Under the pieces are notes generated by a model that did no database searches, was not told the origin of the DNA, and saw only the letters and a program-made list of their open reading frames with translations. Below, one piece after another: positions 22,435-38,142 of a stretch of DNA of 64,000 nucleotides. Origin of the DNA: Nitrospirota bacterium (GTDB lineage Bacteria > Nitrospirota > Nitrospiria > Nitrospirales > Nitrospiraceae); NCBI GenBank assembly GCA_040755395.1, contig JBFMAX010000003.1, positions 248,001-312,000 on the forward strand. Direction: 5' to 3'. How positions within the stretch are numbered: position 1 is the stretch's first letter; each line of letters starts with the position of its first letter. The position numbers and the translations under genes are program-made.

Positions 22435-23166
22435 TCATGACTTGCCGATCCATATACTGCGGTTCGGCCGCTCGCGGTCGAATCGAACGACGCCGGTGTC
22501 CCCTTCGTGCCAGGCCGAGACTTCCTCGGGGGCGAGCAGATGAGATTCTCCTTCCTGCGAACGTCCAAGGTGATCGCGATAGCGGTAGCGGATGCGCCAC
22601 TGGCGGACGCGATTGATGGTGGTATTGGTCGGTCCGATGTGAACGACCGTTCCTTCCGCAACGAGTCCCTCTCGCGACAGGCGCCACGCCCGTAGGATCG
22701 ACCGCAGGCTGACGAGCGTCAACCCGCCGCCAAGCAATGTGAAGACCCCGCCCAGTCCTGTAAAAACCATCGCCGCGATCCGCTCGTCTTCGGCGGACGC
22801 CCGGCTCGACTGCGGCTCGCCGGACAGGTAGGTCACGGAAAACGGATGGCCTGCCTCAATCCGTTCCCATTCCTCCACGGACACTTCAGCCGAGTCCTCG
22901 ACGGCGTCGCCTTGTGCGGTCGTGAAACGGTAGGCGATCACGTAGCGAGTTCGCGAACGCTCCCCGCGTTTGGCCCGCTCGATGGCCTTGTCCAACACGA
23001 TAGCCTGAGCAGTGATCCCATGCTCACGGTATCGTTCTTCCAGCCGGCTCTCTTGGATGCCGTTCGCCAAGAAGACGACGCCGACCACAAGAAATATCGC
23101 GCCGGTCCAAAGCCCTACGGACCGGCGCGCGAGCTTGAACGCAGAAAATGATGGGCGCGAGAACAT
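22435..23166 (-). CDS. DUF3592 membrane protein, paralogue 1
   Basis: A 243-residue protein with a first membrane span near residues 18-38, a small soluble beta-rich domain, a second pair of hydrophobic segments near 125-150, and a C-terminal soluble domain that ends VVRFDRERPNRSIWIGKS. It is clearly paralogous to the next gene, which ends VVRFDRGRPRRSVWLGKA. DUF3592 function is unknown. It lies 9 bp after its paralogue and is the last gene of the run. Confidence 0.82.
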   Translation of the reverse strand: MFSRPSFSAFKLARRSVGLWTGAIFLVVGVVFLANGIQESRLEERYREHGITAQAIVLDKAIERAKRGERSRTRYVIAYRFTTAQGDAVEDSAEVSVEEWERIEAGHPFSVTYLSGEPQSSRASAEDERIAAMVFTGLGGVFTLLGGGLTLVSLRSILRAWRLSREGLVAEGTVVHIGPTNTTINRVRQWRIRYRYRDHLGRSQEGESHLLAPEEVSAWHEGDTGVVRFDRERPNRSIWIGKS

Positions 23167-23175
23167 GATGGTCTT

Positions 23176-23943
23176 TCACGCCTTGCCGAGCCACACGCTT
23201 CGCCGCGGCCGGCCGCGATCGAAGCGCACGACGCCCGTATCGCCCTCTTTCCAGGTTTCAGTCTCTTCAGGGGACAGCGCGCCGCTCTTGCCTTGGTGGA
23301 TTCTGCCGCGGTCGTCCCGGTACTGGTAGTGGATGGCCCATTGCTGGACGCCATTGACCCAGAGGCGGGTCGGACGCACATCCGTCACCGTGGCCTCGAT
23401 AGGAAACCCCTCACGGAGCAGCCATTCCCTTGTGCGGAGCTGACCGAGGCCTCGGAAGAAGAGAACCCCGCCGACACCGGTGAACACTCCGCCGAGGACC
23501 GTGAAGATGATCGGGAGCATCCACCCGCCGACCTGGCCTTCAACTCTGTAATGTTGCGGGTTGTCGGGCAGATAGGTGACCCGAATGGGCTCCCGTTCGA
23601 CCAACGTATCCCAGGTTTCCGCGCTCACCTCGGCGTCGCCCGTGATCAAACCGTTCGGGGCGACAAATCGAAAGGTGACGCGATAGGCAGGGGCCGTACG
23701 GCGTCGGCCGCCGCTGGAGGAGGATGTCCTGATCTCCTTTGTGAGGACCATGCCCTCGATTGTCCGTCCCTCCGCGTCGAGGCGCTTGCTCACAACGAGG
23801 TGTTGCGAGCCGACGTAGAGCCCGATGACCAGAAACGGCGCGCCGACGAACAACCAGACGCCGCCGAACCAGAACCAGAAGTTTCTCGCGCCAGGTCGAA
23901 CCACGGAGATACCCCGGGACGAAGCTCTGAGATCGGAGTACAT
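23176..23943 (-). CDS. DUF3592 membrane protein, paralogue 2
   Basis: A 255-residue protein sharing the layout of paralogue 1: TM near residues 25-45, soluble domain with YRVTFRFVAPNG, a glycine-rich TM pair (FTVLGGVFTGVGGVLF), and a C-terminal domain with ETWKEGDTGVVRFDR. The tandem arrangement suggests duplication. It begins 4 bp after the hydrolase gene ends. Confidence 0.82.
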   Translation of the reverse strand: MYSDLRASSRGISVVRPGARNFWFWFGGVWLFVGAPFLVIGLYVGSQHLVVSKRLDAEGRTIEGMVLTKEIRTSSSSGGRRRTAPAYRVTFRFVAPNGLITGDAEVSAETWDTLVEREPIRVTYLPDNPQHYRVEGQVGGWMLPIIFTVLGGVFTGVGGVLFFRGLGQLRTREWLLREGFPIEATVTDVRPTRLWVNGVQQWAIHYQYRDDRGRIHQGKSGALSPEETETWKEGDTGVVRFDRGRPRRSVWLGKA

Positions 23944-23947
23944 GAAT

Positions 23948-24757
23948 TCAGGAAAATACCCTCTGGACGAGGATCTTCTTCATCTTCTTCTGGATGCACT
24001 TGTCCTTGGGAACTTCTCCATGCGACAGCAACTGGGGAATCGCTTTGACCGGGTCCCGATACTTCCGCTTGCACTTGCCGGTCTTTTCCGTGTTTTGCTT
24101 TTTCTGGTTGCTCTTCCCCGCGTGACTCTCGATCTTGCCGGAAAGCAGCCGATCGAACGGGATGAAGTGATCCCCGGCAAACGGCGGGTTTTGCTGCCAC
24201 CGATTGAAAAAATACTCCACGTTGTCGGGAACCGGCCGCGTGATGTTTTTCCGCAAGCCTCCTTTTCCCACCCCGTCCAGGACGCCGAGGAAGGCGATCT
24301 TCCTGCCGTCGATTCTTTTGACGATCTGCAGCACGGCGTCCCCGCCGTAGCTGTGACCGATCAGGACGATCGGCATGGACGGGTTCTTGGCGTCGATTCT
24401 CTTGATGACCTCCTGCATTTGCTTGATGAAGGTCTCGTCGGTGGGCGGAGAAGGCGTGATCTTCCAGGCGAAGTCGTCCGGGTCCGCCGCCGGCACGCCG
24501 GGGTTGCCTTTCCGGTCGATCTCGTTCCAGTTCGAGATGTGGACATAGGCCCCTTTCTCGCGCAGAAACTTTTGGAACTTCTTGCCGGGCACGCAGCAGC
24601 CGGTGAAGCCGTTGACCAGAAACACGAACGCGGTGTACTTGTCCGCCTGCTCGATGGCGTTGTCCAGCGCCTGGTCGGCGGACGCCGGAAGCGCTGCCGA
24701 CAGCGCCAGAGCAATGGAAATCGTGACGCGGAGTCCGACCTGGAGCCAGCGGTTCAT
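23948..24757 (-). CDS. Secreted alpha/beta hydrolase-like protein with basic C-terminus
   Basis: A 269-residue protein with an N-terminal signal peptide (cleavage after ASA near residue 27). GHSYGGD is the nucleophile elbow GxSxG. A vicinal Cys pair (GFTGCCVPGK) is present early. After the hydrolase core the C-terminal 60 residues are strongly basic (KSNQKKQNTEKTGKCKRKYR and IQKKMKKILVQ). It is probably periplasmic or exported. A lipase-like or esterase-like activity is plausible; the substrate is unknown. Confidence 0.75.
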   Translation of the reverse strand: MNRWLQVGLRVTISIALALSAALPASADQALDNAIEQADKYTAFVFLVNGFTGCCVPGKKFQKFLREKGAYVHISNWNEIDRKGNPGVPAADPDDFAWKITPSPPTDETFIKQMQEVIKRIDAKNPSMPIVLIGHSYGGDAVLQIVKRIDGRKIAFLGVLDGVGKGGLRKNITRPVPDNVEYFFNRWQQNPPFAGDHFIPFDRLLSGKIESHAGKSNQKKQNTEKTGKCKRKYRDPVKAIPQLLSHGEVPKDKCIQKKMKKILVQRVFS

Positions 24758-24791
24758 TCGCGCCGATCCCTCTCTTCCGCGTGTTCCGCCG

Positions 24792-25784
24792 TCACCGGCC
24801 CTTTTCCCCCGATGCCTTTTGGCCTTTCCCCGCCAGGCTCTTCTCGTCTTCGTCTTCCTCCTCTTCGTCCTCTTCCTCGTCCTCTTCTTTCCCCGACTCT
24901 GAGCCGGTGGAGTCGGACGGTTTGCCGGAGGTCTTGCTTCCCTTGATCTTCGGATTTCTTCCCGACATGCCGCCGCCGAGTTTTACGTCGTCGAACGTGC
25001 CTATGCCGTAAATGGTAATGGCGACCGTCTTGACGTTCTTGGGCGGCGCTTCGAAAGTCGCGCGGAGGGTCTTCTCATCCTGGCCTTGGTTGAGTCTGCC
25101 GTGGGTAAACCCGTCGAGTTTCTTGATCGGGTATGTGGTGCCTGTTTCATAGTCCAACAGGTGTGTGTATTTCCCGTCTTCGCTGGTTCCCAGGCTCTCC
25201 GAATGTTTCTTCTCTTTGCCGCCTTCGTAATTGAGGGACACTGTCGCGGATAACACGGCCCCCCGAACCACCACGTCTTTCAATGTGGCCGTGACGTTTT
25301 TATCGAAATCCGTCTGAATCGTGTGGGAACCCAATCCGCCTGAACCTTTCCCGGAGCTGTCCTCTGCGTCTTCGTCCTCTTCCTCGTTTTCTTCCTCGTC
25401 CTTTTCTTCTTCTTCGGCTTCTTTTGAGGCGTCAAGCCGTTTGGCTGCGGGGGCGCTCTTGGATTTCTTGGCCTCCGGCTTGGAGGACTTCGCCGCGAGG
25501 AGGAGCCGGCCTTCCTGCGCGATGTCGCCGACATCCTGATTCACCTGATTCGGCGCTTGCGTCGAGCCCGCCAACTGAGCGGCCGGTGGAGGCTGGATCT
25601 GTTGGGGAGCCGCCGCGGCGATCGCCGCCGGCCGCGCGCTCGACTCCACGTCCTGCCGCGCCACCGCGACGGTTTCCCCCATGCAGCAGGTGAGAAGCAA
25701 ACAGCCCAGAGGAACGAGACCCGTGAACCGGCGTGTCATTCCGTTCCCTGAGGCCTTGCTGAAAACCTCAAGACTGACTTTCAT
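24792..25784 (-). CDS. Secreted, strongly acidic low-complexity protein
   Basis: A 330-residue protein with a good GGAGGT ribosome site. A signal sequence (about residues 16-42) contains GCLLLTCCMG and may be lipidated. Pro/Ala-rich and Lys-rich linkers are followed by an Asp/Glu tract (residues about 121-145), a roughly 130-residue folded beta-type segment, and a second Asp/Glu-rich tract near the C-terminus (GKEEDEEEDEEEEDEDEKS). No known family. The acidic tracts may bind cations or the basic tails of operon neighbours. Confidence 0.75.
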   Translation of the reverse strand: MKVSLEVFSKASGNGMTRRFTGLVPLGCLLLTCCMGETVAVARQDVESSARPAAIAAAAPQQIQPPPAAQLAGSTQAPNQVNQDVGDIAQEGRLLLAAKSSKPEAKKSKSAPAAKRLDASKEAEEEEKDEEENEEEDEDAEDSSGKGSGGLGSHTIQTDFDKNVTATLKDVVVRGAVLSATVSLNYEGGKEKKHSESLGTSEDGKYTHLLDYETGTTYPIKKLDGFTHGRLNQGQDEKTLRATFEAPPKNVKTVAITIYGIGTFDDVKLGGGMSGRNPKIKGSKTSGKPSDSTGSESGKEEDEEEDEEEEDEDEKSLAGKGQKASGEKGR

Positions 25785-25872
25785 GTGAGACCTCCTTCAT
25801 TCTCGACTTTCAAAAATATTCGTTCCGATCAGCCGTCTTCTGACCGAATGCGTGCGGGCTTGCCCGGGCAGC

Positions 25873-26739
25873 CTATCCCGCAGACTCTCGGACGAGACGG
25901 GCGGTCAAGACGTACTTGATCTTTCCGGACTCAATTCCAAAGCACCATTGCTTTTTCTTGAAGGTCTTGAGCTTGAAGCTTCCTTGATTCGCATGGGCAA
26001 GCAATTTGTCGCGCTTTTTCGTCTTGTTGTACCCTTTGACCCACTTGACGCGATCCTTACAGACGGTTTCAGCCGCCCCCTTCCAGACTTCGGTCAGGGC
26101 ATCGGCGATGACGCCCTTGACCTCATCCTGTTTCAATGCCGTGCCGGCCAGCGCAAGACCCGGTTCCGCCGTAGCGGCTCCCACCGTCTGGAGCGTCGTG
26201 CCGGTCGCGGCCGCGTATTTCCGGAGCGCATCGCGTACGTTGCTGAACCCCTTCGGGAGGGCCACATAAATGTTGGCTGTGAGCTCGAGATCTGAGCGTA
26301 ACGGGCCCTGGTAGAGGACGATCGGCTTTCGTGTTTCGGCGTCTTCAAGCGGAATCACCGAGCCCTCCCGGCACACCACTGCGAGAGTTGTGACCGGCTG
26401 TACCTCGGCATTTCCCTGCTCGGCGAGCCGCAAGACAATCGTGACCGCGTCCTTCTCCCCGCCCTTGTCGGTCATTGATTCTTTACAGCGTAGATCGTGG
26501 AGCTGCAGGGTGTAGGTGTCATTCGACGATGATGGAGTCCCTTCAGCGCTCCCCTCCTTCCTGGACTTTTTCTTGGACTTTCCAGGCAAAAACTGTCGGA
26601 TGTGTTGATCGCTCTCCTCCTTGGACGGATCCTCTGCCGGTTCCGCGGCGAAAGACCCTCCGCTTGTTGCAAATAGGAGCGCCGCGCTTCCCATACACAA
26701 AGCTCTGCGTGCGATGGAGTACATTCGATGTGCATTCAT
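25873..26739 (-). CDS. Secreted protein of unknown function
   Basis: A 288-residue protein from the ATG at 26739 (MNAHRMYSIARRAL), preceded by AAGGAGGT. The open frame extends far upstream in the shadow of the M48 gene and is not coding there. A signal peptide is followed by a KSKKKSRKEGSAEGT basic linker, a beta-rich domain with TLQLHDLRCKESM and VTIVLRLAEQGNAEVQ, and a Lys-rich C-terminal half (VKGYNKTKKRDKLLAHANQG). Four Cys may form disulfides. No family recognised. Confidence 0.75.
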   Translation of the reverse strand: MNAHRMYSIARRALCMGSAALLFATSGGSFAAEPAEDPSKEESDQHIRQFLPGKSKKKSRKEGSAEGTPSSSNDTYTLQLHDLRCKESMTDKGGEKDAVTIVLRLAEQGNAEVQPVTTLAVVCREGSVIPLEDAETRKPIVLYQGPLRSDLELTANIYVALPKGFSNVRDALRKYAAATGTTLQTVGAATAEPGLALAGTALKQDEVKGVIADALTEVWKGAAETVCKDRVKWVKGYNKTKKRDKLLAHANQGSFKLKTFKKKQWCFGIESGKIKYVLTARLVRESAG

Positions 26740-26839
26740 GAAGTGACCTCCTTCGTGAAGTGACCGGAGCGAATCACGAGCTGCGACGGAGAACTGTTCA
26801 CGTCGAAAATGAGCCGGTCCTGTGCGCGCCGGGGGACCG

Positions 26840-28093
26840 TCAGGACCCCTGGAGATCATCCAGGGCCTTCCGGATCCGTTCGGCGTCTCTTGCGCCGGGG
26901 TTGAGAGAAAGATACTTCTCAAACGCCATCGCGGCGGTCTTTCGGTCTCCGAGCTTGTAATACGCAAGTCCCATCTCTCTGTAGGCGTCGGCGAATGCGT
27001 CGTCGGCTTTGATCGCCGCGACGAAGTGACCGATGGCCCGCTTGGACGCCTCGGAACCGCTGCCTGTCTCCAGGTCGATCTTTCCAAGGTAGTAGTGCAG
27101 CACGGGGTCGTTGTCCTTGGCCGCCAGCGCTTTTTCAAACATCGCGGCGGCTGTCTTAAACCGCTTGCGTTCGTAGTCCAGCTTGCCGACATTCACCACC
27201 AGCTCGCGCGTCCGCCGGTTGAACTCGTCGGTATTCACCAGAAGCTTCCGGCTTGCCAAATCCTGGCTGTATTTCGATTGGACCAAGCCGGTGAGCTTTG
27301 CAATCCGCGACTTGTTGGTGGGGTGGTCGCCGTAGAAGAAGTTTTCGAGGGCGCCCTGGTCGCCGTATTCTTTCAGGAGTTGCTCGAACGTCTTCGGCGC
27401 TTCCCGCGGGTCGTAGCCGGCCTTGACCAGGTAATCCAGCCCCACGACATCGGCTTCGGTTTCGCTGGCGCGGCCATGGCCGCTGATGGCGGCCTTCATC
27501 GAGTACTCGTAGGTTTTTTGCAACAACGCAGGCGGGAGTGTGACCTTGCCGCTGGCCTCGGCCGCCTGCGCGGCCAGTTGGCCCAGCACCTGAAAGCCGT
27601 AACTGCCTTCGATGCCCTTGGTGACATGGCTTTCCGTGACATGCGCGATCTCATGCGCCAGGACCATGGCCAATTGGGCTTCGTTTTCCATGCGGGCGAG
27701 CAAGCCGGCGTTGACGTACAGGAGCCCGCCGCCGAACGTGAAGGCGTTGATGCTCGCATCGTTGACGACGCGAATGCTGTATGTGAATGGGCGCGGGTGC
27801 GCGACGGCGACGAGTCGCTGAACGATGTCGTTCAGATAAGTGTCGAGCAGCGGATCGTCCCACAACCGTTGGCTGCTCTCATACTTCTTCGCGTTCTCCT
27901 GCGCCATCCGTTCTTCATCAGCCTCGGTGAAGGTCGGCCGATTCATGACGGCGCTGCCGACCGACATCCCTGTCTGAAGATACCGGTCCGTGCCGGCCGG
28001 CAGTTGTTTCATCAGGTCCTCGCAGCCGGCCACGGCGAAAAGTGCATATGCGGCGATCACGGGTACGGCGGGATGACACATGCGTCGAGGCAT
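26840..28093 (-). CDS. M48-family zinc metalloprotease lipoprotein with TPR repeats (BepA-like)
   Basis: About 417 residues from the ATG at 28093 (MPRRMCHPAV), with GAGGAGG before it. The lipobox AVAGC places the Cys at residue 24. The catalytic HEIAH lies at 147-151 with the third ligand in the ETEADVVGLDYL motif. The C-terminal third has TPR repeats (LHYYLGKIDLETG, ADAYREMGLAYYKLGDRKTAAMAFEKYL). BepA-like enzymes control outer-membrane assembly in the periplasm. It precedes the secreted-protein genes. Confidence 0.93.
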   Translation of the reverse strand: MPRRMCHPAVPVIAAYALFAVAGCEDLMKQLPAGTDRYLQTGMSVGSAVMNRPTFTEADEERMAQENAKKYESSQRLWDDPLLDTYLNDIVQRLVAVAHPRPFTYSIRVVNDASINAFTFGGGLLYVNAGLLARMENEAQLAMVLAHEIAHVTESHVTKGIEGSYGFQVLGQLAAQAAEASGKVTLPPALLQKTYEYSMKAAISGHGRASETEADVVGLDYLVKAGYDPREAPKTFEQLLKEYGDQGALENFFYGDHPTNKSRIAKLTGLVQSKYSQDLASRKLLVNTDEFNRRTRELVVNVGKLDYERKRFKTAAAMFEKALAAKDNDPVLHYYLGKIDLETGSGSEASKRAIGHFVAAIKADDAFADAYREMGLAYYKLGDRKTAAMAFEKYLSLNPGARDAERIRKALDDLQGS

Positions 28094-28131
28094 AATGGCC
28101 TCCTCTTCCACAAAAAACCGGACACGGGTTC

Positions 28132-28338
28132 TTACCGGCCTTTATCGCGCCGGTCTGCTGAGGCGTGCCGCTCGCTGAGCTTCGACCACAACGCCTCCCA
28201 CAGCTCGGCGCTGCTGTGAAACGCCCGGCGTCGCCCCTCGCCGTCCTCGACCGTTCCCACCAGGTGTCTTGCCCGTCTTTTCGTGCCGGGACCGTCCTTG
28301 CCGCCCCGGCGGTAGATGCGCACGATGTACGACTCCAT
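28132..28338 (-). CDS. Small basic conserved-type protein
   Basis: A 68-residue protein from the ATG at 28338 (MESYIVRIYRRGG); the frame is open further upstream but that part is AT-poor filler over the operator region. It is basic, with a YIVRIYRRGGKDGP beta strand, a loop, and FHSSAELWEALWSKL helix. It has no known domain. It sits 38 bp upstream of the M48 gene, downstream of paired direct repeats, and may be the first gene of the operon. Confidence 0.65.
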   Translation of the reverse strand: MESYIVRIYRRGGKDGPGTKRRARHLVGTVEDGEGRRRAFHSSAELWEALWSKLSERHASADRRDKGR

Positions 28339-28534: not shown

Positions 28535-31500
28535 TCAGGCTGAGGTGGAAGGCACGTCGGATGTGACGCCGGTTCGGCGGTCGCTGCGGGCGGCGCTCGG
28601 TTGTTGTAACGTCTGGCGGAACCGTTCGATCTCCGGAGACGGCGCCAGGTCGAGCCCGGCTTTCAAGGCCTGCCGGCATCGGTGATACACCGACAGCGCA
28701 TCGGCGGGGCGATCGAGGGCGCGATAACATTGCATGAGTTCCAAATACAGCTCCTCGGCGAGGTCGTCGGCGGCCAGACCTTGTTCCAGCAGAACGATGG
28801 CTTGGTCATAGAGGCCCATCCGCATCAGGCGCCGGGCGTGCGCGATTGCGAAGCGGAGGAATCGGGTCTGCAGCCGCGCGCGCGACGAAAGGGCCCACGT
28901 CGCGTCTACTCCGTCGAGGAACCGGCCGTGGTACAAGCTCAACACCTTGCGGGCGGCAGCCGTCAGGTCCGCCTCGTCTCCTTCCCGCTCAGCCGCGCTG
29001 AGCAGGCGTTCGAACGACCAGGCGTCGACCCAGACATCGCGCGGCTCGAGGGTGAGGCGGTTGTGAGTGAGTCTGAGGGCGGCGTCCGACCCGAGCAGCC
29101 GGCGCAGCCGATGCAGCGCGACGGTGAACACCCGATAGGCGGCGTCGGCGTCGGCGTCCGGCCAGAGCGCGTCGGTCAATTTCTCGATCGGGACCCCGCG
29201 CCCGCCCAGAGCAATCAGCGCCATGAGCAGCTCGAGCGGGCGGCGCTGGGTCTTGCCTTTGAATCGAAGGGGCGTGCCGTCTTTCACCACGGCGAAGCGC
29301 CCCAAGGTATAGACCTTGATCGGCCAGGGCCAGTCGTCGGCCGGTATGTCGGCCGGCGGCGCGAGGGCATGCCGCCGGACCGCCTCCTTGACGTAGTCGG
29401 GCTCGATACCCGCATCGAGCGCGTGCGCATACAGCCGGGCGATGCGATCGCGCGTCCACCACGGAAGACCGGCGAGGCCAAGGGCTTTGCCGAGGCGCAA
29501 GGCTTGCCGGAGTAAGGCCGATCCTTCCTGCTCTCGCCGCAACGAGAATTCGAGCTCCGCCTCCGTGAGGTCGCACATGTATTCGAGGGATCGGCCGCCG
29601 ATGGCGCGGGCGATCCGGCGCGCGCCGTTCAGCGAGTTCCGTGCGCGGGTCGCCTGGCCCGTCTCCAATGCAATGCGCGCGTTCGCCATCAGACAGATCG
29701 CCTCACCGAACGGCATGCCGCTGGCCCTGACCATCGTCAGGGCCGACTGCGCGCATTCTTCGGCGTGGGCCAGTTGGCCTTTGTGCAGAGCCACCATCGA
29801 GGCCAGGTGATGATAATACGAGCCGTCGAGCAGACTCTGGGGGCGGAGGGCGAAGGATGTCTGGTGAAGCCGGCGCTCGGCCGCCTCGACGTCGCCTCGT
29901 ATGAGGAGCAGAAAAATTTCCGCGCCCAGGCGTTGAATCTCGACCATACGGATGCCCGTGGCGTCGGCCAGCCGGCGGCCTTCCTCGACTTCGTGCAAAC
30001 CCTGTTCGATGTCCCCGGTGTGCCAGTACACGATCGCCAGCGAGGCGTGCCGCCACAGGCGGGTCATCGGGGCGACGTCCTGCCTTGTCCATTCTGCGTG
30101 GATCTCGGCGATGAGGTGCTTCGCTTTGGCGAGGTCCCCCCGCCACGTGCAGTAATACAGCAGATGGTTGGCTTGCATCAGGCGGGTGTTGATGTCCGCC
30201 CCCGACCAGAGCAGCGCTTCGGCTTTCCCGGCCCATGAGGGAAGATCCGGGTGATCGGGCCAGCGGTTGATGAGCATCGTAAAGGTCGCAAAGGTGACGC
30301 GCGCTTCGATCTCGGACGACGGATAGTCCGGATACCGGCGGCGAAGGTCGTCGAACAGCTCTCGGCACCGGTCGAACTGGACGAAATCCCGCCATTCGAA
30401 GAAGACGCTTTCGACGAGACCCAGCCAGGCGAGATACGAACCGGCGGGATCGTCCGTCTTCTCGAACAGCGCGAACGCCCCGTTGAAGTGCGCCCGTGCC
30501 TCGACCGGATCGAACGGCAGCCGGCAGGTCCCCAGCCAGTAGCGGAGCCACGGTGTCTTCTCAAGCATCTCGCCAGGGACGGCCCGAATCCACTGCGCCA
30601 AGGCCGGGCCGCGACCCTGGGCCGCCATCACCGGCGCCTGCAGGAGGACCAGTCGGATCAGCCTGTCCCAGTCGCCGGCTTCGATCAATAATGCGGCGGC
30701 GTCTTCGATGAACCCGTCGGCTTCGAGCAACGCCGCCGCCCGGCGCCGCAGGCGGTTCAGCTCCGGCTGGGAATAGGCTGCACGGGCGCGAGACTGCAGG
30801 AAGGCCCGGAACAGCGGATGGTATTCATAGGTCGGGGATGGGCCGGCAAGCTTGAAGGTGAAGTAATTGCGACGCACCAGTCCGTTCAGCAAAGCCTCCG
30901 CCTGTTCGATGCCAGTCAACTGTCTGGCCGTCTCAGCCGTGATCTTGGGGAGGAGAGACGTTTGCAGCAGCATGGCGCGCGTCGTGTCGTCCGTGCGCTT
31001 GAACAGTTCCTCCGCGAAATAGTCGAACAGCATCACGTGGCCGGAGGACAGGTCCCGTGTTCGTCGTCTCCCGCAAGGCGATCCATGTTCGACCAACAAC
31101 ACGAGGCCGGTGACCCAACCCTGCGTTTCTTCATGCAGGGCGCGAAGTTGCTCCGTGCTCAGTCGGGATCGCAGCCGGCCGATCGCAAGACTCTCCCGTT
31201 GGGTCAGCCGCAGATCGTCCCAGCCCAAAAGGGCGAGCAAACCGGATGCGAGCAGGTGAGCCAAAGAGGACGGAGGATCGGCGCGGCTGAGGACGATCAC
31301 CGTGACGTCGGGCGGAATTTCGGCGAGCCCGATCGACAGCAGGTCGTGCAGCGGCGAGTCTTCCGGCAGGCGCTCGAAATTGTCGAACACTGCGACGCCG
31401 GGCTGTTTGATCCGGGCGAAGAACAGGCGGAAGAAGTTGCGGGTGAAGGCCGGGAGGCCAGGCAGATATTCCGGCGTCAGGAGCGGGAGTTGCGCCTTCC

Positions 31501-31819
31501 TGCGGGAAGCGCCATGCCCGACGGCGAGTCTTAGATAATAAAAGAACGACGCGGGGTCTCCGTCGCCCGGGTCGATGCTGTACCAGATGTGAGGCAGTCT
31601 CCGAGCGCCGAGGTAGCTGGCCGCCAGCGTCGTCTTCCCGGACCCGGCCGGGGCGGTGAGCCAGACGACCGGTCTTTTGCGGGCCGCATCGAGGAGGCGG
31701 AACAGCCGCTTCCGCTCATGCACCACGGGCAGAGTCGGGCGGGTGAGCTTGGCCAGCCTCGGAGTGCGTACGGCCATGGACGTCCGGACAGGGGTGGCGG
31801 CGATGGTCTCACACTTCAC
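28535..31819 (-). CDS. Large BTAD/SARP-like ATP-binding transcriptional activator
   Basis: A 1094-residue protein. An N-terminal STAND/AAA NTPase has Walker A TAPAGSGKTTL (about residues 54-64), Walker B VAVFDNFERLP and the MalT-like LSRADPPSSLAHLLASG segment. The middle is TPR-like. At about 855-950 an OmpR-type winged helix (VYTLGRFAVVKDGTPL... RVFTVALHRLRRLLG) is followed by a BTAD domain (LYHGRFLDG... ELYLELMQCYRALDRPADALSVYHRCRQAL). Such proteins are ligand- or ATP-gated activators. The start is a GTG at 31819; an ATG at 31777 is an alternative. It lies just upstream of the operon it may control. Confidence 0.9.
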   Translation of the reverse strand: MKCETIAATPVRTSMAVRTPRLAKLTRPTLPVVHERKRLFRLLDAARKRPVVWLTAPAGSGKTTLAASYLGARRLPHIWYSIDPGDGDPASFFYYLRLAVGHGASRRKAQLPLLTPEYLPGLPAFTRNFFRLFFARIKQPGVAVFDNFERLPEDSPLHDLLSIGLAEIPPDVTVIVLSRADPPSSLAHLLASGLLALLGWDDLRLTQRESLAIGRLRSRLSTEQLRALHEETQGWVTGLVLLVEHGSPCGRRRTRDLSSGHVMLFDYFAEELFKRTDDTTRAMLLQTSLLPKITAETARQLTGIEQAEALLNGLVRRNYFTFKLAGPSPTYEYHPLFRAFLQSRARAAYSQPELNRLRRRAAALLEADGFIEDAAALLIEAGDWDRLIRLVLLQAPVMAAQGRGPALAQWIRAVPGEMLEKTPWLRYWLGTCRLPFDPVEARAHFNGAFALFEKTDDPAGSYLAWLGLVESVFFEWRDFVQFDRCRELFDDLRRRYPDYPSSEIEARVTFATFTMLINRWPDHPDLPSWAGKAEALLWSGADINTRLMQANHLLYYCTWRGDLAKAKHLIAEIHAEWTRQDVAPMTRLWRHASLAIVYWHTGDIEQGLHEVEEGRRLADATGIRMVEIQRLGAEIFLLLIRGDVEAAERRLHQTSFALRPQSLLDGSYYHHLASMVALHKGQLAHAEECAQSALTMVRASGMPFGEAICLMANARIALETGQATRARNSLNGARRIARAIGGRSLEYMCDLTEAELEFSLRREQEGSALLRQALRLGKALGLAGLPWWTRDRIARLYAHALDAGIEPDYVKEAVRRHALAPPADIPADDWPWPIKVYTLGRFAVVKDGTPLRFKGKTQRRPLELLMALIALGGRGVPIEKLTDALWPDADADAAYRVFTVALHRLRRLLGSDAALRLTHNRLTLEPRDVWVDAWSFERLLSAAEREGDEADLTAAARKVLSLYHGRFLDGVDATWALSSRARLQTRFLRFAIAHARRLMRMGLYDQAIVLLEQGLAADDLAEELYLELMQCYRALDRPADALSVYHRCRQALKAGLDLAPSPEIERFRQTLQQPSAARSDRRTGVTSDVPSTSA

Positions 31820-33334: not shown

Positions 33335-35800
33335 CTACGTGTTGTTGATCTGCGGGGCGATATAGCGCACGACTTTCAATTCAGCCAGCATGGCCAAGTT
33401 CTGGATGGGCAGCCGGCCGATCACCGGCGTGCCGGTCTTCGGCTTGAGCAGCAGCTCGAAGCCGAGTTGCCGCAGTAGCGCCAGCGTCGCTTCCGACGTG
33501 TCGCTCAGCCATACCTGAATTTCCGCCTTGCCCTGTTTGACGAAGGCGGCTTCCTCGGGCGTCGGCGTGTGAATCTTGTCTTTCAGCCGCTTGACGATCG
33601 CCGCCAGACTTCGGTGCAGCTTCGCGGCGTTCTGCGCAGCGGATCGATCCGGCGCGGTCTCCTCGTGGGAATAGGAGACGGCCTCGTCCGTTTCGATCAT
33701 GGCTCGCTGCTCCATCGCCTTTCCCAAGATACCTCGGTCGGTCATCGGCGGCGCGGCTGCAGCGCTCGTCATCGGAAGCGGTCTGTTGCCTTCGCCCGTT
33801 CCGCCGAAGATGCCTTCGTAGCTCACACCCTCGGGAATCTCGACCGGCACGTCGATCCGCCGCGGTCGGCCGCCCTCCGTGATCGTCATCTCTTCGACGG
33901 CTACGAACGAGGTGTACTGCGTCATGAGGCGGTAGTCGAGCCCCAGTTGCGTGATCGCCAGCCGCACCTCCGCCTTCGGCGTCCCGCGCTGAATGCCGGT
34001 GAAATCCTGCGCCATCAGGTCGTCGATACGGGCGCGCGCCCACAGGGTGGCGAGCACGTCGTGCCGCGGTTGCTTCTCCGGCAGCTCCACCCTGATCTCG
34101 CGCGTGACGGGACGGCCGGCCAGCTTGCCGTGCAGCTTGATGGTGCTCTTGCCCGGCGCTGTGTAGCGGCCGGTCAGGATGACGGGCTTGGCGCTGAAGA
34201 GGTCCGGCAGACGACGGGGATACACGTCCTTAACCTTCAGCGCGTCCCACTCGACGGACAGGTCGGTCAGCAGCGGGTTGCGCACGCGCTCGTGGAAACG
34301 CCGCGCGGCGGCCGACCCGTCGTCGTTGAGGCCGACGTACTCGACTTCGCCCCGGCCTTCCTCCGCCATCTTGTCCAGCAGGACCCGATTGACCGCGCTG
34401 CCGATGCCGAACGAGAAGACCCGCGCGTTCGGGTGTTTCCGGATTTCGGCGATGATCTCCATGTCATTCCCGACATAGCCGTCCGTCATGAAGCAGACGA
34501 TCCGGATGTGCTCCTGCGAATCCGACGGATCGAGCGCGGCCTTGATCGCCTTCATCATTTCCGTGCCGCCTCCGCCGGACCGCGATTGCAGGAACGTCAG
34601 CGCCTTGCGCAGGTTCTCCTTCGCGGCGGGCACCGGTTCGGGAAACAGGATGTGCGTGTCGCCGGAGAAGGTGATGAGGTTGAACCGGTCTTGCGGATAG
34701 AGCCCCTCCAGCGCCAAGCGCATCGTCTCCTTGGCCTTCTCGACCGGGAAGCCGGACATGGACCCGGAGGTGTCCAACACGAAGACCAGTTCTTTGGGGG
34801 TGACGTCGGCCGGCGTCACGCGATCGGGCGGCTGAAGGATCAGCGTGAAGAAGCCGTCCTTGCCATGGCGATGTGCGAGCACGGCGTCCTGGATCTTCCC
34901 GCCGGCCACGTCGTACCGCAGGATGAAATCCTTGTTGGGAATCGAAGCCCGGTTCTTGAGACGAACGACCGCGCGGTCGGGTACAGGGTTGTCGATCGTG
35001 ACCTCATGCGTCTTGGACTGAATGTTCCGGATCGGTACGCCGGCATCGAGCATGACCTCGATGGAAATATCATGGCCGGTTCTTGTCCCCGGAGGCATAA
35101 CTGTCGGCGTGATCCGCGAGGCGTCCGGCACTTGGTCTGTATCGTAGGCCCAGCCGCCGCCCAGCTTGTTCCCGGTCGGCTGGCCGGGGATGTAGCGCGG
35201 TCCGACGACCATCGGAACGACCAACTCATAGGCGCCCTCCTCGTACTTCAACACTTCCACATAGCTGATCGTGACGGTGATCTGCTCGCCCGGCATGATA
35301 TTGGCCACCGACTGTGTAAAGATGTTCGGCCGTTCCTGGTCGAGCAGACCGGTTCGGTGGCCTTTGGCTTTCGCCGCCTCGTAGATGGCCTGCGCGTCCT
35401 CCCGCTTCGTGATCTTGGCTTTTACGACGCGGTCGCCGACCGTCAGCGTCATGTCGTCCACCGCAGCCCGCTGCGGCAGCGGGAAGGTGTAAACGGCTTC
35501 GATCTTGTCCGGGAACGGATTCTCGAACCGCTGGGTCACGCGGGCGCGGGCGAGGAATCCGCTGACCTCGATCTTCACGTCCGTGTGCTTGAGGGGGAAC
35601 AGTTGCGCGGGCTTCCCGTCGGCATCGAGGGCCGTCAGACCCCCTTGTGGCTCGCTGTGCGGGGGAGCAGGGACCGGAGCCGGTGCGGCCACCCTGGCGA
35701 AGGCGAAGCCAGGCCGGATGGAGAGCAGCGCGGCGACCAAGGCCGCGGAGATGACCAGCCATCGAGGAACGGGGTGGAGCGGAACGGCGTTTCTTCTCAT
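33335..35800 (-). CDS. VIT- and VWA-domain exported protein
   Basis: About 821 residues from the ATG at 35800, with a strong AAGGAGGA site. The signal peptide is near residues 12-35. A VIT domain (about 55-185, with VTQRFENPFPDKIEAVYTFP and KAKGHRTGLLDQERPNIF) precedes a VWA domain whose MIDAS DTSGSMS is at 343-349. A C-terminal region of about 300 residues follows. The family resembles inter-alpha-trypsin-inhibitor heavy chains and the marine proteobacterial sortase-target proteins, but no LPxTG or C-terminal anchor is present. Likely periplasmic or surface adhesion. Confidence 0.9.
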   Translation of the reverse strand: MRRNAVPLHPVPRWLVISAALVAALLSIRPGFAFARVAAPAPVPAPPHSEPQGGLTALDADGKPAQLFPLKHTDVKIEVSGFLARARVTQRFENPFPDKIEAVYTFPLPQRAAVDDMTLTVGDRVVKAKITKREDAQAIYEAAKAKGHRTGLLDQERPNIFTQSVANIMPGEQITVTISYVEVLKYEEGAYELVVPMVVGPRYIPGQPTGNKLGGGWAYDTDQVPDASRITPTVMPPGTRTGHDISIEVMLDAGVPIRNIQSKTHEVTIDNPVPDRAVVRLKNRASIPNKDFILRYDVAGGKIQDAVLAHRHGKDGFFTLILQPPDRVTPADVTPKELVFVLDTSGSMSGFPVEKAKETMRLALEGLYPQDRFNLITFSGDTHILFPEPVPAAKENLRKALTFLQSRSGGGGTEMMKAIKAALDPSDSQEHIRIVCFMTDGYVGNDMEIIAEIRKHPNARVFSFGIGSAVNRVLLDKMAEEGRGEVEYVGLNDDGSAAARRFHERVRNPLLTDLSVEWDALKVKDVYPRRLPDLFSAKPVILTGRYTAPGKSTIKLHGKLAGRPVTREIRVELPEKQPRHDVLATLWARARIDDLMAQDFTGIQRGTPKAEVRLAITQLGLDYRLMTQYTSFVAVEEMTITEGGRPRRIDVPVEIPEGVSYEGIFGGTGEGNRPLPMTSAAAAPPMTDRGILGKAMEQRAMIETDEAVSYSHEETAPDRSAAQNAAKLHRSLAAIVKRLKDKIHTPTPEEAAFVKQGKAEIQVWLSDTSEATLALLRQLGFELLLKPKTGTPVIGRLPIQNLAMLAELKVVRYIAPQINNT

Positions 35801-35876
35801 GGCATCCTCCTTGTGCGGGACGGCAGCATGCCGCCTCACCAAGGGAATGCCGCGAGGGAGCGAATCCTTTCAGGGC

Positions 35877-36074
35877 TTACACGTCCTCGCGCACGGAGAA
35901 GAACTCGCTGCGCTCACGCGGTCGGCGGCGTGGGTGAGGGAGGTAGAGCGGGAAATAGTAGGGTCCCGCCCCTTGAAGACCCGGCCTCAGCACTGGAACG
36001 ATGAGGTACGCTGAGGCGCGCTTGGTATCCTGCGAGCCGGTGTCGAGCATGCCGCGCACAATCATGCTGTCCAT
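35877..36074 (-). CDS. Mini-ORF in the sigma/VIT-VWA cluster
   Basis: A 65-residue ORF with a good GGAAGGAG site six nt before its ATG at 36074. Sequence MDSMIVRGMLDTGSQDTKRAS continues to a short hydrophobic stretch (AYLIVPVLRPGLQGAG) and a basic, Pro/Arg-rich end. It lies downstream of its own probable promoter (36166-36194) and 76 bp before the VIT-VWA gene. No homologue recognised. Confidence 0.5.
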   Translation of the reverse strand: MDSMIVRGMLDTGSQDTKRASAYLIVPVLRPGLQGAGPYYFPLYLPHPRRRPRERSEFFSVREDV

Positions 36075-36165
36075 GCTGTCTCCTTCCTATTCGGTGAGGC
36101 CGGGTGCCCCCTTTCTGACATCCGTGATCTGGCTCCGTAGAACGCATACGGCCATGACCCTTTGA

Positions 36166-36194
36166 TCTATAGCCAAGATCATCGGATCTGTCAG
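36166..36194 (-). promoter_or_regulatory. Internal promoter upstream of the mini-ORF and VIT-VWA gene
   Basis: On the minus strand CTGACA (36194-36189), 17-nt spacer, TATAGA (36171-36166), close to sigma-70 consensus. It would give the VIT-VWA gene transcription independent of the sigma factor gene. Confidence 0.6.
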
Positions 36195-36214
36195 TGACCA
36201 GAGTGTAGGGAACA

Positions 36215-36236
36215 GGACCCCCTGTTAGAGGGGTCC
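36215..36236 (-). terminator. Intergenic hairpin after the anti-sigma-like gene
   Basis: GGACCCC pairs with GGGGTCC around an 8-nt loop. No T-tract follows, so it may be an attenuator or processing site between the sigma/anti-sigma pair and the downstream genes. Confidence 0.5.
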
Positions 36237-36256
36237 CTGCCGACTTGCAGTCTGTT

Positions 36257-37552
36257 TTAGTGAGAGGCCAGGGGAATATCTACAACCAGCCTGGCGTTTG
36301 CGGCAGGGTCCGGATTCACGACATAGACCGCTCGTTCGTCGGGAGAGCCGAGTCGGCTCGGGTCAACGTGTTCGATGACGAGAGACTTTGCTCCTGGTTT
36401 GCTCCGCTCGACCACGGATGCCAAATCCGTGATGTCCATTTCCGGCTCGCGCGAGAACAGAATGAACAGGCGACCCCGAGGCGCGACGCCTTCGCGCATC
36501 GGCCCGACCGGAAGCGGGATCACATAGCGCGTGCCGGCGGTCACTTCCGGCCCCTCCGGCTGTTGCTCTTTGTTCGGAGGCGGTGGCGGCGGAGGGAAGA
36601 ACAAGCTCGCTGTTCCTGGTCTCTCCTCGTACCAGACAAAGAGATAGCCGTGGTCGTTGGTTTCGATCGTGAGGCGCGGGTGATCGCGTTTGGTGAAGGC
36701 GGCCAAGGAGTCCACTTCCACATCGCGGCCGTCCCGGCCTCGAAGGAGGAAGCTATAGCGGAACCCAAGCGGTTTGGCGCCGATGTCCCGTTCCTCTAGG
36801 TAGGCACTCTCACCGGTTGGGGCGCGTGGCGTTTCCGCCATCGTCCGCCGGCCTTCTCCGTAGAACAACGCGCGTGCGCTCACCGGCGCCGCGCCGATGG
36901 CGCCCAAGGCCCGCATGGTCGGCGCGGACGCTGCCGGTCCGGCCTGTTGCGGGGCCGATGGCGGAGCCGCTGGTGATGGAAGGTCGGCCTTGGGCGGCAG
37001 GCGACCGGCTTGGGGCGCCGGCTCTTCCTGCTCCGGCGCCGCCTTCTGTTCCGCCCGAGGCGCGATGGCGCGGGCCGGGGCCTCAGGGGCAGCGGGCTCG
37101 GACTTCGGGACAAGCGTGCGCGGTTCGTGTCGCGCTTGCGGTTCTGTCGATGCCGGAGCCGGGGCTTGCGTGGGCGGCTTCGCATCCTCGGCGGCCATGG
37201 GTGGGACGGACGTGCGCAGGGTCTCTTCGTAGAGCCGGGTGCCGACGACAATCGCCACGACGGCGGCCGCCAGTCCTCCGGCCAAAGCCGCATTCACCGG
37301 CCGGCGGAACCATTCTGTGAAACGAGCAGCCCACGATGTGGTAGTCGTAGCCGGCGGTCGCTCCAACGCCGCGAGGATGCGCCGCCGGCTGACCGGGTCG
37401 TTGAGCAGTTCCTTCAACGCCTGTTCATCGGCGAGCGCGTCGAAGAGCGCCTGATCGCGCAAGGCCGCTTCAAACAGCGCGCGGCGCTCCTCGGCCGTCA
37501 ACGTGTCCGTCGCGAATGCCCCCAAAAGTTTTTCTAGATCGCGTTCAGCCAT
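36257..37552 (-). CDS. Anti-sigma-factor-like membrane protein with DUF4384-like C-terminus
   Basis: About 431 residues from the ATG at 37552 (MAERDLEKLLGAFATDTLT). The N-terminal 60 residues are helical and resemble anti-sigma domains without the zinc HxxxCxxC motif. One membrane span lies near residues 92-108 (NAALAGGLAAAVVAIVVG), then a long Pro/Ala-rich periplasmic linker. The C-terminal 150 residues are beta-rich (YSFLLRGRDGRDVEVDS, PRLTIETNDHGYLFVW) and look like DUF4384. It follows the ECF sigma gene by 92 bp and probably sequesters it at the membrane. Confidence 0.8.
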   Translation of the reverse strand: MAERDLEKLLGAFATDTLTAEERRALFEAALRDQALFDALADEQALKELLNDPVSRRRILAALERPPATTTTSWAARFTEWFRRPVNAALAGGLAAAVVAIVVGTRLYEETLRTSVPPMAAEDAKPPTQAPAPASTEPQARHEPRTLVPKSEPAAPEAPARAIAPRAEQKAAPEQEEPAPQAGRLPPKADLPSPAAPPSAPQQAGPAASAPTMRALGAIGAAPVSARALFYGEGRRTMAETPRAPTGESAYLEERDIGAKPLGFRYSFLLRGRDGRDVEVDSLAAFTKRDHPRLTIETNDHGYLFVWYEERPGTASLFFPPPPPPPNKEQQPEGPEVTAGTRYVIPLPVGPMREGVAPRGRLFILFSREPEMDITDLASVVERSKPGAKSLVIEHVDPSRLGSPDERAVYVVNPDPAANARLVVDIPLASH

Positions 37553-37644
37553 CTTCAGAAAGCGTGAATCGTTAAAGGTGAAACGGCAATCGTAAAGCGC
37601 TCGCAATTCCTCATTCCTAATTCCTCATTCATAATTTCATTCTC
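37553..37644. repeat. Short-word repeats between sigma and anti-sigma genes
   Basis: GTGAATCGTTAAAGGTGAAACGG-like words followed by CTCATTCCTAATTCCTCATTC words fill the space upstream of the anti-sigma ATG. Both word families recur elsewhere in the window. Confidence 0.6.
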
Positions 37645-38142
37645 TCACTCCCATCCCCCTCCCATCAGACGTAAGAGCTGCTTCCGGCACCGAGAGTCCC
37701 AGGTGTAGATCGTATTGATGGAATGTTGACCCATGAGCTGCTGAATTTCCGGAAAGGTTTTTCCTTCCAGTTTCAGCCGGAAGAGTTCCCGGCAGTGGGG
37801 ACCGAGCCGGTCGAGGGCCGCGATCAGCCGTTCGACCGTCTGCTTGCGTTCCAATTCCGTTCCCGGGTTGTCACGCCCATCGGCAATGTGGAGGTCGTCG
37901 ATGGATGCCGCATCATACTCGCCGCGCCGTTCCATCTTCCGGTGCAGGTCCAGCATCTTGAACCGCAAGACTTGAAAGGACAGCGGGACCAGTTCGGTCA
38001 ACTCCGTGACGTGACCGTATTTTTCGTGCAGCACGAGCATGACGTCCTGAACCAGGTCCTCAGCCGCTTCCCTCGATAGACGGGATGTGGCGAACGCCAG
38101 GATCCTTTCGCGCAGTCTGGAAAGAATCTCATCCCGGTCCAT
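37645..38142 (-). CDS. ECF-type RNA polymerase sigma factor
   Basis: A 165-residue protein with a region 2 (RLSREAAEDLVQDVMLVLHEKYG, then LSFQVLRFKMLDLHRK) and region 4 (LGPHCRELFRLKLEGKTFPEIQQLMGQHSINTIYTWDSRCRKQL). Length and layout fit ECF sigma factors. The promoter region has TACAAT at 38190-38185 and the palindrome GAGTTGATCAACTC at 38213-38226. It is the first gene of the sigma/anti-sigma/mini-ORF/VIT-VWA cluster and likely transcribes part of it. Confidence 0.9.
   Translation of the reverse strand: MDRDEILSRLRERILAFATSRLSREAAEDLVQDVMLVLHEKYGHVTELTELVPLSFQVLRFKMLDLHRKMERRGEYDAASIDDLHIADGRDNPGTELERKQTVERLIAALDRLGPHCRELFRLKLEGKTFPEIQQLMGQHSINTIYTWDSRCRKQLLRLMGGGWE

Follow-up and report, generated by a model that had tools for sequence, protein, structure and literature searches.

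The beta-barrel assembly-enhancing protease of E. coli, BepA, is a soluble periplasmic protein in which an M48 metalloprotease domain is followed by TPRs. LoiP is an M48 outer-membrane lipoprotein that lacks TPRs. BepA is described as acting on the outer-membrane protein LptD during LptD maturation (PMC7950410, PMC8423444). Although proteases of the M48-TPR type are common, most of their clients are unknown, and a fixed protease with changing exported neighbours would point to candidate clients. Here we describe an M48-TPR protein from a Nitrospirota bacterium, encoded in a window of 64,000 nucleotides, which is the whole stretch of DNA analysed (contig JBFMAX010000003.1, positions 248,001 to 312,000).

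Organization of the gene block

The original prediction placed seven genes in a row, separated by gaps of 4-100 bp and with strong ribosome sites before several of them, and this description was borne out. Seven ORFs in the same direction occupy the minus strand of the window from 22435 to 28338. In the 5' to 3' order of the block, the genes and the features within them are as follows.

28132..28338, minus strand: P0007, 68-aa ORF, a doubtful gene (ORF call; weak ribosome site)
26840..28093, minus strand: P0004, M48 metallopeptidase lipoprotein of 417 aa with C-terminal TPRs (PF01435 and TPR families)
25873..26739, minus strand: P0001, exported orphan protein of 288 aa with a Lys-rich C-terminal part (signal-peptide-like N-terminus)
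24792..25784, minus strand: P0002, exported protein of 330 aa with two D/E tracts flanking a beta-domain (sequence and domain homology)
25362..25430, minus strand: P0002 acidic tract 1, residues 119-141 (charge profile)
24975..25340, minus strand: P0002 beta-domain, residues about 149-270 (homology)
24840..24890, minus strand: P0002 acidic tract 2, residues 299-315 (charge profile)
23948..24757, minus strand: P0003, exported alpha/beta-hydrolase of 269 aa with the motif GHSYGG, S136 and H246 (motif, homolog and model)
24023..24136, minus strand: P0003 basic insertion, residues about 208-245 (loop before H246)
23176..23943, minus strand: P0005, DUF3592 membrane protein a, 255 aa, arranged TM-domain-TM-domain (PF12158)
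22435..23166, minus strand: P0006, DUF3592 membrane protein b, 243 aa (PF12158)

The gaps, in the same order, are 38, 100, 88, 34, 4 and 9 bp. Three genes are preceded by a strong Shine-Dalgarno sequence, which is GAGGAGG for the M48 gene and AAGGAGG for both P0001 and P0002; no clear ribosome site was seen in the sequence upstream of the P0003 hydrolase gene and the DUF3592 genes. Terminator-like sites within the block are not more frequent than in shuffled sequence, and the arrangement is compatible with the seven genes being transcribed as a single mRNA. The 68-aa P0007 gave no Pfam or NCBIfam match and no relative among 98 family genomes, and may not be a gene.

Directly upstream of the cluster and on the same strand lies the gene for a 1094-aa BTAD/AAA-type transcription regulator (28535-31819), which could control the cluster. 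A VIT/VWA protein, an anti-sigma-like protein and a sigma-70-like factor are encoded nearby (33335-38142), and the sigma gene with its partner likewise adjoins the cluster in two related genomes, G097 and G182. A search for anti-phage defence returned no convincing PADLOC match.

The M48-TPR lipoprotein

The M48-TPR identity proposed for P0004 was confirmed by Pfam (E 7.7e-27), with PF01435 scoring 94.8 bits against a cut-off of 20.3. A lipobox, VAGC within the sequence FAVAGC and ending at Cys24, was recognized by eye, and the close orthologs carry LTGC at this site. Around the HEIAH motif (residues 147-151), H147, E148, H151, E211, E213 and D215 (P0004 numbering) are invariant across seven homologs. 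The invariance of these zinc-site residues points to an intact site, and P0004 should be an active protease.

P0004 and BepA have in common the order of an M48 domain and TPRs. The NCBIfam BepA model matches residues 54-266 of P0004 (E 2.7e-39), which is the M48 part only, and the BepA equivalog NF052400 scores 135.3 bits, far from its cut-off of 570. P0004 further differs from BepA in its shorter TPR region, its gene neighbourhood and the presence of a lipobox. With LoiP it shares the M48 domain and the lipoprotein signal, and the LoiP model NF052399 gives 54 bits against a cut-off of 365.

More distant M48-TPR proteins, 30-33% identical to P0004, are encoded in relatives (L049, L088-L090). 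Unlike the protease of the window block, these keep the same partners throughout, and no DUF3592 match was seen in their vicinity. They form a compact trio, conserved in several relatives, of an exported protein of about 250-280 aa, the distant M48-TPR protein and a lipoprotein of about 197 aa (L049 6569-9138, L088 5158-7699, L089 5484-8016, L090 5082-7674).

Conserved ends and a variable middle

The two genes at the 3' end were expected to encode DUF3592 proteins, in agreement with PF12158 scores of 32.4 bits for P0005 and 28.7 bits for P0006, both above the gathering threshold of 25.3. The two proteins are paralogous, with two hydrophobic membrane segments each. DUF3592a is rare, being matched in 6 of 147 family genomes at E<=1e-3 and closely only in the window genome (G000), G090 and G182. 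Orthologs of P0005 were identified in G090 and G097, and those of P0006 in G090, G097 and G182.

The complete seven-gene set was found in no other genome searched. When gene order was compared among relatives, the prediction of a conserved block held for its ends, as M48-TPR and DUF3592 co-occur, and failed for the three middle genes, which do not. In a wide search of 267 class genomes, close orthologs of P0004 were present only in G182 (77%) and G097 (70%), after which identity drops to 30-34%; in both of these genomes the DUF3592 pair, or member b of it, is present as well. In G097, the genes follow one another on one strand as amidohydrolase, a 487-aa protein, M48-TPR, a 94-aa exported protein, an Ig/WD40 exported protein, a 387-aa exported coiled-coil protein, DUF3592a, DUF3592b and a small membrane protein. 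The exported genes in between have no detectable similarity to P0001-P0003 and no strong charge tracts. The M48 gene of G182 stops 309 bases short of the end of its contig, and another contig begins inside DUF3592b and continues into the same small membrane gene. The two contig ends are consistent with the gene order of G097, the missing middle falling at the same place. A frame of M48-TPR, variable exported genes, DUF3592a and DUF3592b is present in three genera (G000, G097 and, across the contig break, G182).

The position of the frame differs, following the BTAD gene in the window genome and the amidohydrolase gene in G097 and G182. That the M48-TPR/DUF3592 order is the same despite differing flanks supports the frame; the counterpoint is that it comes from three genomes only, in one of which an assembly gap interrupts it. 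The frame is also loose, since G090 carries the DUF3592 pair alone (54-58% identity) with no M48-TPR gene beside it, and the small membrane gene found 3' of the pair in G090, G097 and G182 is missing in the window. The pair-only case of G090 had suggested that the DUF3592 genes are unrelated to the rest of the block, an interpretation that was dropped given G097 and G182. In G016 (L075), the M48 protein encoded near DUF3592 is of a different membrane type and was not counted.

We tentatively interpret the locus as an envelope-protein cassette, with a conserved M48-TPR/DUF3592 frame and exchangeable exported contents, and rate this interpretation just short of an even chance. A membrane-anchored, BepA/LoiP-like M48-TPR lipoprotein protease at the 5' end and two DUF3592 proteins at the 3' end would be kept together, and the genes in between would provide lineage-specific exported cargo, here a Lys-rich orphan, an acidic-linker beta-domain protein and an esterase-like hydrolase of the cutinase/lipase fold. 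By analogy with BepA, the TPRs would hold exported client proteins, and the M48 protease would mature these clients or clear misfolded ones. The DUF3592 pair may act as an accessory, probably in the inner membrane. The genome comparison shows the ends to be linked, in few genomes, and the charged middle to be lineage-specific; the function, with the client relation, the quality control, the cellular location and the DUF3592 role, is what we infer. If true, the cassette would give the first functional context to DUF3592, a domain rarely named in the literature searched. The broader proposal, in which the protease and the DUF3592 pair constitute a portable handling module for rapidly changing exported proteins that each lineage loads with its own envelope or secreted cargo, seems unlikely to us.

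A competing explanation is an insertion hotspot between the amidohydrolase/sigma genes and Lhr, where unrelated genes pile up with no joint function, and we take it as a serious possibility that stays somewhat below even. DUF3015 adjoins Lhr in most relatives examined, and in several of them genes for the sigma factor and the amidohydrolase lie a few kb off, with the cluster absent. Which genes occupy the interval from Lhr/DUF3015 to the sigma/amidohydrolase genes varies among relatives, a PIN-like gene was noted by eye within the G097 region, and G090, as described above, lacks the protease next to its DUF3592 pair. The high Lys content of the middle genes and their G+C content, the lowest of the block, are as expected for a separate origin. 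Because the amidohydrolase-Lhr region is generally variable, part of the linkage could reflect a common insertion site. A hotspot does not readily account for the co-occurrence of M48-TPR and DUF3592, in the same order and with differing flanks, in those genomes that encode a close ortholog of the M48 protein. The frame and the hotspot are poorly separated by three genomes.

The exported proteins of the middle

P0003 has the hallmarks of an alpha/beta-hydrolase fold, namely a GxSxG elbow, GHSYGG at residues 134-139, and a conserved H246, and its Pfam matches lie below the curated cut-offs (Hydrolase_4, 20.9 against 27; Lipase_3, 18.7 against 22). A homolog from a Nitrospinaceae MAG, 35% identical over residues 106-224, retains S136, D161 and H246. 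The assignment of the catalytic acid is uncertain, with D161, D196 and D202 as candidates that are all conserved in both sequences. A structure model of P0003, of modest confidence (mean pLDDT 56), could be superposed on cutinase with Z 9.4 and on monoglyceride lipase with Z about 9; Foldseek alone gave no match for P0003 below E 0.001. P0003 has the GxSxG nucleophile motif, the conserved His and the modelled fold in common with hydrolases of these types, and differs from them in sequence (9-15% identity) and in a long basic insertion before the His. The basic tail that had been ascribed to the hydrolase is in fact this internal insertion, immediately preceding H246, which is a low-confidence loop in the model and is shorter in the Nitrospinaceae homolog. 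P0003 is confined to its own genome among the class and phylum genomes (1/270 and 1/396, respectively), and no relatives were found in phages, plasmids or viral contigs. The gene for the sole relative found (L065 6753-7715) adjoins genes for Sel1-like exported and mechanosensitive-channel-like proteins, an unrelated neighbourhood.

The beta-domain of P0002, which appears beta-rich from a reading of its sequence, is shared, at 40% identity (L050 ORF 8308-9990), with the C-terminus of FlgT-like proteins in another genus, g4. The full-length protein is present in one of 270 genomes, the window's own; no copy of the domain was found on plasmids and no second copy in the same genome. P0001 has no relative in 396 phylum genomes other than its own (1/396), in genome_contigs or on plasmids, and its single-sequence structure model has a mean pLDDT of 41.8. 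A match of P0001 to CDtoxinA (E 0.1) fell below the cut-off and was taken as a chance match.

Tracts of opposite charge had been predicted in the three exported proteins, and the acidic side of this prediction stands. The two acidic tracts of P0002 stand out clearly, reaching a net charge of -16 per 25 residues compared with at most -7 in the other listed ORFs of the window. On the basic side, P0001 and P0003 are unremarkable: their stretches carry +7 to +8 per 30 residues, and window ORFs reach +10 per 25. The Lys contents of P0003 (10.7%), P0001 (10.0%) and P0002 (9.7%) are the three highest among 22 window genes compared, and the three genes are adjacent; the other 19 have at most 7.0%. The P0001-P0003 genes have a G+C content of 57-59%. 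High Lys and lower G+C in the three middle genes may reflect a common origin or common selection.

The original proposal was of an envelope or extracellular complex, assembled from the three proteins by way of their charges and subject to processing by the M48 protease. The adjacency of the exported genes, the exceptional acidic tracts of P0002 and the concentration of the highest Lys contents in three neighbouring genes are in its favor, and we nevertheless consider such a complex improbable, as the basic tracts are unexceptional in amount, P0001-P0003 occur together nowhere else among the genomes searched, and the genes that replace them in G097 have neither strong charge tracts nor detectable similarity to them. 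P0001 and P0003 were absent from all relatives searched, and the only P0003 relative found is in an unrelated neighbourhood. Acidic linkers around folded domains, moreover, commonly serve as spacers or in solubility and cation binding. A stable acid/base complex of P0001-P0003 may exist in the window genome, and the comparison with relatives lends it no support. As unrelated exported genes take their place in relatives, the charged proteins seem to be exchangeable cargo of the frame rather than members of a fixed, charge-matched complex.

Another kind of exported protein, recognizable by a CC motif and by GGYG...LPxGTYDV repeats, is encoded at L061 4933-6122 and L085 13982-15445; none was found in the window. 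The genes for these repeat proteins are located upstream of the DUF3592 genes in G090, and in G097 upstream of the M48-TPR gene.
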